Of a stretch of 64,000 nt of DNA, positions 24,594-38,956 are shown in pieces. Below the pieces are notes generated by a model that did not search any database, was not told the origin of the DNA, and saw nothing but the letters and a program-made list of their open reading frames with translations. Both the position numbers and the translations under genes were made by a program. Each line of letters begins with the position of its first letter. The stretch's first letter is position 1. This DNA comes from Chthonomonas calidirosea T49 (GTDB lineage Bacteria > Armatimonadota > Chthonomonadetes > Chthonomonadales > Chthonomonadaceae): NCBI RefSeq assembly GCF_000427095.1, contig NC_021487.1, forward strand, positions 2,253,325 to 2,317,324, given 5' to 3'.

Positions 24594-26285
24594 ATGGACA
24601 GACCTGCCGCCCAGGTGCCCTCTCCACAAGATGGCTTCAATGGCAACGTTGTCAATGCGCGCTCCATTATGAAGCGGCCTGAAGAGCCTTGCAGCTTCAT
24701 TATCTTCGGCGCCTCCGGAGATCTCACCCATCGCAAACTTATTCCTGCCCTCTATAACCTCGCTTGCGACAACCTGCTTCCGCCCGAATTCCAGGTCTAT
24801 GGCTTCGCCATCACCCCTATGAACGACGAGTCGTTCCGGAAGGATATGGAAGAGGCCGTGCGCAACAGCAACGAGGCAAGTCCATTTGACCTAAGGGTTT
24901 GGCACGGCTTTGCCAAGAGATTGCACTATATCACCGCCGATTTCGAGGCGCCGGAGGGATATAAGCAGCTTCAAGAGAAGATAACGGCTTATGTCAAAGA
25001 GAAGAACGTCCCCGATAACCGCCTCTACTATCTCGCCACCTCGCCCTCCTTTTACGAGCTGATCGTCAGCAAACTGGGCGAGCACGGCCTTGTGACTCCA
25101 GACTATGCCAGTGGAACCCAGTGGACGCGCATTGTGGTGGAAAAACCTTTTGGACATGATCTGCATTCCGCTCAAGCGCTCAACGCCAGCATTCATAAGG
25201 TGTTCAAGGAGGAGCAGGTCTACCGCATTGACCACTACCTTGGCAAAGAGACGGTACAGAACATTTTGGCGTTTCGCTTTGCCAACTCCATCATCGAGCC
25301 GATCTGGAACCGGCGCTACATTGACCACGTGCAGATTACCGCTGCGGAGACCTTGGGCGTTGAGCATCGCGGCGCCTACTATGAAAAGGCGGGCTGCCTA
25401 CGCGATATGGTGCAAAACCATCTTTTCCAACTGCTCTCCGTGATCTGCATGGAGCCGCCGGTGCGTTACGAGGGCACAAGCCTGCGCGATAGGAAGGCCG
25501 ATGTGCTGCGTGCGGTAGTGCCCATCAACCCAGAGAACCTGGCCGATATCGCCGTACGAGGGCAGTATGGGCCGGGATTCATCAATGGGCAGCCGGTAGT
25601 GGGCTATCGCCAGGAGCCTAACGTAAACCCCCAATCTAACGTAGAAACCTATGTTGCCCTTAAGCTCTTCGTGGATAACTGGCGCTGGGCCGATGTGCCT
25701 TTCTACCTTCGCTCCGGAAAACGTCTCGCCGCCAAATGCACCGAAGTGGTCATTCAGTTCAAACGCGTTCCCCACCTTTTCTTCCAACTCTCTACAGAAG
25801 ACCAGATAGAGCCGAATCTGCTGATCATCCGCATCGCTCCGGATGAGGGCATCGCCCTGCGTTTTGAGGCCAAAGTGCCCGGCCCTGACATGGTACTGCG
25901 CTCCGTTCAGATGAACTTTAGCTATTCCGAGACCTTCAAAGTAAGCCCGGCCACAGCTTATGAAACGCTTCTTCTAGATGCCATGATCGGCGATACCACC
26001 CTGTTCAACCGTGCCGATCAGGTGGAGCTATCCTGGGCCATCATCGAGCCCTTGCTGGAGGTCTGGTCGGCCACGCGCCCCTTCCAGCCGTTTCCCAACT
26101 ACGCGGCAGGCACTTGGGGTCCGGCAGCAGCTGACGCCCTTATTGCGCGCGACGGCAGAGCCTGGCATAATGTGCCAGTCTCCACCGCCCCGCAAAAAGC
26201 GCCTCAGGTCTCGGTGGAGCTAACGGGAGAACCCATTGGAGTGCGCCGCGCACAGACGCCGCAAAAGGGGCAGAAAGAGGAGTAA
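24594..26285 (+). CDS. zwf: Glucose-6-phosphate 1-dehydrogenase
   Basis: The first enzyme of the oxidative pentose phosphate pathway oxidises glucose 6-phosphate to the lactone with NADP+. The 563-aa protein has the NADP loop FGASGDLTHRKLIPALYNL near residue 38, VVEKPFGHDL, and the active-site motif RIDHYLGKE. The N-terminal 30 residues and the Ala/Gln-rich C-terminal tail extend beyond the common length of about 490-510. AAAGGA lies upstream of ATG 24594; the in-frame ATG at 24669 is a possible alternative. No opcA, pgl or gnd is adjacent. The RDD gene follows after 8 bp. Confidence 0.95.
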   Translation: MDRPAAQVPSPQDGFNGNVVNARSIMKRPEEPCSFIIFGASGDLTHRKLIPALYNLACDNLLPPEFQVYGFAITPMNDESFRKDMEEAVRNSNEASPFDLRVWHGFAKRLHYITADFEAPEGYKQLQEKITAYVKEKNVPDNRLYYLATSPSFYELIVSKLGEHGLVTPDYASGTQWTRIVVEKPFGHDLHSAQALNASIHKVFKEEQVYRIDHYLGKETVQNILAFRFANSIIEPIWNRRYIDHVQITAAETLGVEHRGAYYEKAGCLRDMVQNHLFQLLSVICMEPPVRYEGTSLRDRKADVLRAVVPINPENLADIAVRGQYGPGFINGQPVVGYRQEPNVNPQSNVETYVALKLFVDNWRWADVPFYLRSGKRLAAKCTEVVIQFKRVPHLFFQLSTEDQIEPNLLIIRIAPDEGIALRFEAKVPGPDMVLRSVQMNFSYSETFKVSPATAYETLLLDAMIGDTTLFNRADQVELSWAIIEPLLEVWSATRPFQPFPNYAAGTWGPAAADALIARDGRAWHNVPVSTAPQKAPQVSVELTGEPIGVRRAQTPQKGQKEE

Positions 26286-36340: not shown

Positions 36341-36835
36341 ACAAAACTATCCACCAAAACCCAGGCAGTTTTCCACCAAAATTGGCGAGTTTTCCACCAA
36401 ACTAGCAAAACTATCCACCAATAACCAGTAAACCAAAATAGGGCATAATTACCCAAAAATGAGAGAAGGATAAAAAACCGAAGTTAACAAAACGTCGTTG
36501 TACAACAAAACTATCCACCAAAACCTCAAAAAAACGTTTTCCACCAAGATTTTGAGGCCGAAGTTTTCCACCAAAAAACGGCAGTTTTCCACCAAAATCG
36601 GCAGTTTTCCACCAAGTTTTCCACCAAAAATCGGGCCTCTTGGTGGAAAACTGGGATGGAAGTGAGTTTAACTCTGTCTACATTTTTGAAGTTGAAGTAG
36701 TGTATGTTAAGATGAAATAAGTGTAAATAACGAAATTTTGAGAATACAAAGGAACAGTTTATTACAAAGTTTTCCACCAAAATGGGGCGCTATAATAATA
36801 ACAATAAGATTCTTTTTATATATAATAATAGTGCC
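36341..36835 (+). other. Probable chromosomal replication origin (oriC)
   Basis: Twelve DnaA-box-like sites occur in an AT-rich, gene-free segment. Core TATCCACCA starts at 36348, 36412 and 36512. TTTCCACCA starts at 36370, 36391, 36538, 36565, 36586, 36606, 36618 and 36771, and one inverted copy lies at 36641-36649. As 9-mers they read CTATCCACC or TTTTCCACC, each 7/9 matches to the E. coli box TTATCCACA. Several neighbouring boxes are spaced 20-22 bp, two helical turns, so they lie on one face. An AT-rich element follows the last box. recF and a DciA-like gene start directly to the right, a common origin neighbourhood. dnaA and dnaN themselves are not in this window. Confidence 0.85.
36784..36832 (+). 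other. DNA unwinding element with DnaA-trio-like run
   Basis: Directly after the last box (36771-36779) come a GC block GGGGCGC (36784-36790) and then TAA-TAA-TAA-CAA-TAA-GAT (36793-36810), a 3-nt periodic run. Uninterrupted A/T with TATATAATAATA follows to about 36830. Box, GC block and trinucleotide run in this order match the basal unwinding system described for Bacillus-type origins. Confidence 0.6.
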
Positions 36836-36902
36836 TGTTCTATAAGAGCGCGGTCGGACGATAAAAAACGGTACAAAAAAACCCTTCGCCCCAGCATTCT
36901 GC

Positions 36903-36918: not shown

Positions 36919-38238
36919 ATGCACATTCGCCGCCTGTACCTAACCGACTTTCGCAACTATGCTGAACTTGTGCTCGAGCCGACAGAGGGCATGAACATCC
37001 TCTACGGCAAGAACGCGCAAGGCAAAACCAATGTGCTCGAAGCCATCGTGCTGCTTGCCACGACGCGCTCCATGCGTGCTGGGCGCGACTCGCAGATGAT
37101 ACGCGCCGGCGCCGAGCGGGCCCAAATCCATGCCGAGATCGTTCGTGAGCGCGAAGGAGAGGTGGACCTGTTCCTGACCATCCTTCCAACCGACCGCAAA
37201 AGCGTTCAGATCAACCATCTCAAGCGCGAACGTGTGCTCGACCTTCTCGGTCAGTTTAACGCCGTTTTCTTTGGAGCATCGGAACTTGCCATCATTTCCG
37301 GCGAGCCCGCCGATAGGCGCCACTTTCTCAACATGGAGATATCGCAGATCAGCCCGCGCTATGTATACGATCTCGCTCACTATCGCCGGGTGTTGGAGCA
37401 GCGTAACCGTCTGCTGCGCGATCTGCGAGAGATGCGCCTGCCGCGAAAGGATTCTGGGTTGGAGGTATGGAATGAACAGCTGGTTCGCTATGGAACCTCG
37501 CTGATCCGGAGGCGGCTGTTTTACATCGAGCGCCTGACCCCCTTAGCCGCCCAGATCCACGCAGAGCTAACCGACGGCAAAGAGAAGCTCGAGCTGCGCT
37601 ACCAGCCCGGAATTGACCTTACTTCCGAGGAGTTGCCGCGAACGCAAGAGTCAGGAGCCTCAACTCTAATGGCGGCTGAGGGAAAGGACGCTGGGGGTGA
37701 GGTCTCCACAGGGACGGTTTCCCCCTTTACCGTCGTGTACGATGCGGAGGAGAGCCAGCTAAGGAGCCTTTTTGAGCGCCATTTGCAGCGGGTACTCGAT
37801 GAGGAGCTACGAAGAGGCACAACCCTTATCGGCCCGCAGCGCGACGATCTCGTCTTTCTGATCAACGCCGTAGATGCCCGTATCTATGCCTCGCAGGGGC
37901 AGCAGCGCACCGTGGCGCTCTCCCTAAAGCTGGCAGAGTTCTGCCTTATGGAGCGTTTCATAGGGGAGCCTCCCGTGATGCTGCTTGATGACGTGATGAG
38001 CGACCTCGACGATGTTCGGCGCCGAAGGCTCTTGAAATGGGTGCAGGGGCGATGTCAGACTTTTCTTACCTGCACCAACCTACGCAGCTTTCCAAAAGAG
38101 ATTCTGCGAGAGGCCGCCGTCTTTCACGTGAGGGCGGGAACCGTCTGTTTTGAGGGATTCGGGACGCATTTCTCGAAAGAGGCGCCAGAACAACCGATAC
38201 CGGAAGACGCGGCCGTCTTAAAAAAAGAGCCGCGGTAG
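36919..38238 (+). CDS. recF: DNA replication and repair protein RecF
   Basis: RecF is an SMC-like ATPase that helps load RecA at single-strand gaps. The 439-aa protein has LYLTDFRNYAEL at its start, Walker A GKNAQGKT (about 31-38), the signature SQGQQRTVALSLKLAE, and Walker B PVMLLDDVMSDLD. It is longer than the usual 360-370 aa because of a low-conservation insertion around residues 235-265 (TQESGASTLMAAEGKDAGGE) and a C-terminal tail after about 400. It is the first gene to the right of the origin. The ATG at 36919 has no ribosome site and may be read from a leaderless message. Confidence 0.96.
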   Translation: MHIRRLYLTDFRNYAELVLEPTEGMNILYGKNAQGKTNVLEAIVLLATTRSMRAGRDSQMIRAGAERAQIHAEIVREREGEVDLFLTILPTDRKSVQINHLKRERVLDLLGQFNAVFFGASELAIISGEPADRRHFLNMEISQISPRYVYDLAHYRRVLEQRNRLLRDLREMRLPRKDSGLEVWNEQLVRYGTSLIRRRLFYIERLTPLAAQIHAELTDGKEKLELRYQPGIDLTSEELPRTQESGASTLMAAEGKDAGGEVSTGTVSPFTVVYDAEESQLRSLFERHLQRVLDEELRRGTTLIGPQRDDLVFLINAVDARIYASQGQQRTVALSLKLAEFCLMERFIGEPPVMLLDDVMSDLDDVRRRRLLKWVQGRCQTFLTCTNLRSFPKEILREAAVFHVRAGTVCFEGFGTHFSKEAPEQPIPEDAAVLKKEPR

Positions 38239-38326: not shown

Positions 38327-38956
38327 GTGAATTTTGCTATGAGGCGACCTGATAAGCCAGACGATCCGCTCATCCCTTTACTGAAAGGGGGCCCTTTGGC
38401 CGAGGCGCTTATGCAGGCCATCGCCCCTCTAGAAAGCGCGCCGCTCATTCGGCAGAGCCTCGCTTTGGTCTGTTGGCCACGCGTCGCGGGAGAGCAGGCG
38501 GCCAAAGCCTCCCGCGCAGAGATGATCCGTAACGGCGTGCTTTTTGTGCGTACGCGCAGCTCCACCTGGTCACAAGAGTTGGCTCTGCACAAACACAAGC
38601 TGCTTCAAAAGCTGGCCCGACTTCTCGGCCCTGGAGTCGTCACGGATATCGTGTTCCGCGCTCAGGGAGTAGATGGAGAAGACCCCTCCTTCCCTGAGGA
38701 AGAGGAGCCGACCGCGGAGGAGCTGCGCAAAGTCGTTTTAACCGATGAGGAACAGGAGCTTCTCAAAGCGCGCCTCGCTTCCCTAGCGAGCATCTCGAAT
38801 GCGCGCGTTCGCCAGGCGATAGCGCACCGGCTCGAAATGGAAGCGCGGCTCTACCACTGGCGTTTAGAGCGCGGTTGGAAAGCCTGCAAAAAGTGCCAAG
38901 TGCTCCATAAAACGCCCTACGCGCTCTGCCCCCTTTGTAGATTGGAGGAGTCGTGA
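38327..38956 (+). CDS. DUF721/DciA-like protein with C-terminal zinc ribbon
   Basis: The N-terminal part (about 15-115) is the DUF721 KH-like domain: LALVCWPRVAGEQAAKASRA and GVLFVRTRSSTWSQELALHK. DciA proteins of this family load or recruit the replicative helicase DnaB in bacteria without DnaC. The 209-aa protein adds an acidic linker and a C-terminal zinc ribbon with Cys187, Cys190, Cys201 and Cys204. The ribbon is not part of the core DUF721 domain. Position between recF and comEC beside the origin supports a replication role. The start is GTG 38327 or ATG 38339. comEC overlaps its stop by 4 bp. Confidence 0.8.
   Translation: MNFAMRRPDKPDDPLIPLLKGGPLAEALMQAIAPLESAPLIRQSLALVCWPRVAGEQAAKASRAEMIRNGVLFVRTRSSTWSQELALHKHKLLQKLARLLGPGVVTDIVFRAQGVDGEDPSFPEEEEPTAEELRKVVLTDEEQELLKARLASLASISNARVRQAIAHRLEMEARLYHWRLERGWKACKKCQVLHKTPYALCPLCRLEES

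Follow-up and report, generated by a model that had tools for sequence, protein, structure and literature searches.

A candidate DnaA-type chromosomal replication origin with a diverged box next to recF in Chthonomonas calidirosea T49

An array of twelve diverged DnaA boxes next to recF is very probably the chromosomal replication origin (oriC) of Chthonomonas calidirosea T49, and this origin would be of the DnaA type. Its location, uniqueness, box polarity, DNA instability, family-wide layout and box variation were computed here. A preliminary description had read the segment as an origin; this is upheld by a unique box cluster, a skew minimum, unstable DNA 3' of the last box and a layout found across the family.

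The window, by which we mean the whole analysed stretch of 64,000 nucleotides, was searched for exact copies of TWTCCACCA. Twelve lie within 36348–36779, 11 on the forward strand and one on the reverse strand, exactly as first described, and a single stray copy was located outside the array at 25135. Shuffled sequences gave a chance expectation of 0.72 copies per 64 kb window and no more than 4 in any one of 100 shuffles. All 12 array boxes have the CCACC ending and most are spelled AAAACTATCCACCAA or GTTTTCCACCAA; a pattern search for the canonical TTWTNCACA gave no match in 36341–36835. The start-to-start distances of the forward boxes (22, 21, 21, 100, 26, 27, 21, 20, 12, and 153 bp) are uneven and thus define two roughly in-phase groups, so that of the phased array proposed earlier the several 20–22 bp spacings stand and the single array does not. 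The boxes at 36606 and 36618 form a direct pair with a counterpart in relatives. The array stretch is AT-rich and without genes, and adjoins recF and a gene first described as DciA-like, for which PF05258 confirmed homology to DciA. The coordinates of these features are collected in Table 1.

Table 1. Boxes, putative unwinding element and right-hand genes of the candidate origin, in window coordinates.
Feature	Position	Strand	Remarks
Distal (left) box group	36348–36420	+	Four boxes at 36348, 36370, 36391, and 36412, 21–22 bp apart
Proximal (right) box group	36512–36626	+	Six boxes at 36512, 36538, 36565, 36586, 36606, and 36618
Inverted box	36641–36649	−	In several relatives, too, the direct pair is followed at similar distance by an inverted box
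Unwinding-element-proximal box	36771–36779	+	Last box before the AT-rich element
Putative DNA unwinding element	36780–36839		GC-rich spacer GGGGCG, then CTATAATAATAACAATAAG, then TTCTTTTTATATATAATAATAG
recF	36919–38238	+	Conserved right-hand neighbour of the origin in the family
dciA	38327–38956	+	Helicase-loading factor; PF05258, E 2.4e-14

In the origins of E. coli and Bacillus subtilis, the box polarity points to the side of the unwinding element. By nearest-neighbour stability, the window is weakest at 36732–36839 (5.1–5.4 SD off the mean), at and directly 3' of the last box, which is where the box polarity predicts an unwinding element. The earlier proposal that the boxes point toward such an element was thus borne out, the DNA 3' of the last forward box being the least stable in the window. 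On the reverse strand, 36790–36808 reads CTTATTGTTATTATTATAG and comprises overlapping TTATT repeats; when compared by eye, TTATT fits the sequence after the last box better than the DnaA-trio (tandem 3'-[G/A]A[T/A]-5'). From these features we infer a course of DnaA binding, filament direction and strand opening, in which DnaA would bind both groups of (T/C)TWTCCACC boxes and a directional filament would grow toward the box at 36771. The AT-rich element would then be opened by DnaA and the exposed TTATT repeats captured as in E. coli-type origins, and helicase loading would follow, probably with DciA.

The T49 chromosome is one contig of 3,437,861 bases, in which TWTCCACCAA occurs 36 times, with 12 copies in the array and the other 24 scattered singly, a number close to the 18 matches of a reversed-pattern control. 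The array, at chromosomal positions 2,289,672–2,290,104, stands alone as a cluster in the 3.44 Mb, which leaves no other origin candidate with the T49 box; the genome-wide count suggested in the preliminary description thus revealed no second locus. Skew was evaluated from forty 20-kb samples together with two denser stretches of the chromosome. The samples gave a single GC-skew minimum, near 2.3 Mb, and a single maximum, at about 0.45–0.5 Mb, and in a contiguous 318 kb (2.149–2.466 Mb) the cumulative GC-skew minimum was located at 2,294,663, about 4.6 kb from the array, and the keto-skew minimum at 2,290,663, only 0.6 kb from it. The minimum hence falls at the array and not elsewhere, which answers the skew check proposed at the outset, and the skew is locally shallow on both sides. 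Taking the GC-skew maximum at approximately 480,732 gives replichores of about 1.81 and 1.63 Mb. A search for parS gave no site within one mismatch, and the best matches were not above background. These data also bear on the idea that the boxes form a DnaA-titration or regulatory cluster (datA/DARS-like, or for recF autoregulation) lying near the origin rather than at it, which agrees with the presence of boxes just upstream of recF. That idea is very improbable, since the array is the only cluster of the T49 box in the genome, bears the putative unwinding element and sits at the skew minimum.

The same layout was observed in relatives (genomes and loci compared are given G and L codes, and G000 is T49). 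The regions upstream of recF in the family carry box clusters, and the proposed module of boxes, TTATT and AT-rich DNA recurs there. Counted from the last box, a direct pair at −186/−174 and an inverted box at −150 were detected in G002, G008, and G015, and within 1 bp of these positions in G016; in G009 the second direct box lies at −174 and the inverted box at −150, G010 has −167/−155 and −141, and T49 has −165/−153 and −128. The lone inverted box of T49 is probably not noise, because several relatives have one in the corresponding position. Several relatives also have a distal group near −400, which in T49 spans −423 to −359. Behind the last box, most genomes of the family and two from a second family of the order have AATAA-type repeats and a TATA-rich stretch; for G001, G011, G005, and G007, which escaped the automatic layout anchor, the unwinding regions were read by motif. 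Palindromes of the type TTTTGAGTC...GACTCAAAA, or their TTGAGTC variants, occur between the box groups of G002, G006, G015, and G016 (L016, L022, L015, and L011) and were not seen in the T49 genome; they are possibly the site of a second regulator. G020 and G025 (L125 and L127), which belong to a neighbouring family in the order, likewise have the origin flanked by dnaA and recF, with boxes TTTCGCACA/TTTTGCACA, and the G020 DnaA has N433, Q438, and R439.

Beyond recF and dciA lie comEC-type genes and dxs, and glycoside hydrolases are located to the left of the array. As first described, dnaA and dnaN are absent from its vicinity: dnaA is at 1.352 Mb (0.94 Mb away) and dnaN at 2.809 Mb (0.52 Mb away). 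Since five relatives (G005, G006, G009, G010, and G016) have dnaA before the array and recF after it, the most economical interpretation is a relocation of dnaA in T49, with the origin staying beside recF. The sole DnaA found in the T49 genome keeps the DHTT recognition motif and R399. Its gene reads in two frames, GTGGATGAC[AC]ATTCAG, with an apparent 2-bp insertion just past the Walker B motif (G000 C1:1352441-1352925; L006, approximately position 1510, reverse strand). The insertion most likely stems from an error in sequencing or assembly; a frameshift in the essential dnaA would be remarkable if real. The reading of the array as the origin of a former plasmid or integrated element agrees with the spacing of the left group, iterons for a Rep protein being same-orientation repeats approximately 20–22 bp apart, but it is extremely improbable and already largely refuted, as no Rep was found among the seven neighbouring genes searched (recF, dciA, comEC-type, dxs, and glycoside hydrolases), the array lies at the skew minimum, and the family as a whole has homologous arrays next to recF or flanked by dnaA and recF.

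Box spelling was tallied without bias over the five bases that follow TWT. The endings differ by genus within the family (CCACC, TCACC, CAACA/TAACA, and CAGCA), while the spacing to the unwinding box is nearly constant. CCACC led the count in G000 (12) and shared the lead in G004 (4), TCACC led in G010 (7), and CAACA was first or tied first in G016, G015, G002, G005, G006, G008, and G003; TAACA accompanied CAACA in G008 and G009, and a weak CAGCA was obtained for G001 and G011. The box of this species, TTTTCCACC, may be set beside TTATCAACA of a CAACA genus (e.g., G016) and TTATCCACA of E. coli. G009 mixes TTATCAACA and TTATTAACA boxes with a TTATTCACC box at the unwinding element, and may be an intermediate in the change. 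Elsewhere in the phylum, GCACA-type boxes were found in the neighbouring family f3, canonical CCACA arrays in f15 and f29, among other families, and CAACA arrays adjoining dnaA in f6 and, as just one pair, in f8 (G035); many further families that were sampled had origins that were not clearly readable. An origin-like multi-copy CCACC array was seen only in T49 among 291 genomes of the phylum, where the few other CCACC multi-matches look like short repetitive runs. The CCACC-ending box, which had been attributed to the lineage in the form CCACCA, is real in T49 and a few genera of its family and is not lineage-wide. In G033, G060 (L103 and L107) and other f6 genomes the CAACA arrays lie downstream of dnaA, and the f6 DnaA recognition turn shows a one-residue deletion and N433; the change to CAACA in f6 is apparently a separate shift. 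The dnaA locus of an uncultured Clostridiales (RUG098; L166) has six TTWTCAACA against one TTWTCCACA, and its DnaA has N423, S435, and Y439; this could be another box shift or a chance effect of AT-rich DNA.

Elsewhere the DnaA box is nearly fixed. The residues of E. coli DnaA that contact bases are 399, 423, 432–435, and 438–439 (PMC5043019). In the DnaAs compared, R399 and H434 are retained and D433 mostly so, and residues 423, 433, 435, and 439 vary alongside the boxes. R423 occurs in the three CACC genomes (G000, G004, and G010) and T, S, or A423 in the CAACA genomes of the family; P423 was present in 51 of 69 DnaAs from other phyla, a convenience sample among the matches listed. Residue 435 is T or S in the CACC genomes and A in the CAACA genomes, and within the family all genomes with A435 and a readable array have mainly A at box position 6, and all those with T/S435 and a clear array have C. 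A one-residue code (A435 for CAACA, R423 for CACC) seemed perfect inside the family and breaks down outside it: Lachnoclostridium sp. An169 (L161) combines A435 with CCACA, f6 combines S435 with CAACA, and R423 accompanies GCACA-type boxes in G021 and G029. H408 was also tried as a determinant and failed in G009 and G035. These exceptions mean that there is no one-residue code, and the residue–box association is to be taken as a lead. Inside the family, as few as one or two events may lie behind it, as the tree neither supports nor refutes a single clade of the CACC genomes G000, G004, and G010.

We lean slightly toward the view that the box was rewritten several times in this one phylum (CCACA, CCACC, TCACC, CAACA, CAGCA, and GCACA), with most or all sites changed in an origin that is conserved in other respects, and in step with residues 423, 433, 435, and 438–439. 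In the family of T49, the consensus has departed from TTATCCACA on a retained layout, and the specificity of DnaA presumably changed with it through changes in domain IV. The box differences between relatives could instead be drift that a DnaA of constant specificity tolerates. Such drift is in line with the exceptions in L161 and f6, with the possibility that the family shift was one or two events, and with several DnaAs of other phyla that lack P423 and occur with CCACA (box counts in that control were taken over entire loci, which reach about 11 kb, and not over origins alone). It is nevertheless unlikely, as the boxes of an origin change almost all together, at as many as about ten sites, which is not expected of drift, and as position 6 follows residue 435 in the family. 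If the repeated rewriting is true, the phylum offers a natural series for how the specificity of an essential initiator shifts jointly with that of the approximately ten sites it binds.

The oriC of B. subtilis consists of a box, a GC-rich spacer, and a DnaA-trio repeat running into AT-rich DNA. T49 has the same succession, whereas its repeat, read on the strand opposite to the boxes, matches TTATT better than a clear DnaA-trio. The E. coli oriC sequence was also used for comparison: in both origins the CAC side of the boxes faces the AT-rich unwinding element and TTATT lies beside the nearest box, whereas the T49 boxes end in CC instead of CA, are nearly all in one orientation, and adjoin recF–dciA. 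The TTATT motif was named in a study that describes the Thermotoga maritima oriC, whose box ACCTACCAC is asymmetric and non-canonical, whose series includes one inverted box, and whose unwinding element contains TTATT (PMC10316083). T49 shares all three features; however, the 5' half of the box differs and neighbouring boxes are closer in T. maritima; the common CCAC end may be a coincidence. Epsilonproteobacterial origins combine the changed box core TTCAC with an altered recognition helix in DnaA, above all at residues 435 and 438–439 (PMC5043019). A joint change of this kind would be shared by the T49 family, but position 5 changed class-wide in the epsilonproteobacteria, whereas positions 6, 7, and 9 differ between genera of the T49 family. 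As far as can be read from sequence, this would be an ordinary DnaA-type origin, of which the diverged box on a conserved layout is the less ordinary feature.

For Fimbriimonas ginsengisoli, a canonical-box search gave no clear origin (PMC4072686). The T49 array would place an origin in Armatimonadota, the phylum in which that search had given no clear one, and origin finders based on TTATCCACA would miss the group of T49. With box changes at genus level on a conserved layout, this family would allow direct tests of how initiator and origin co-evolve.
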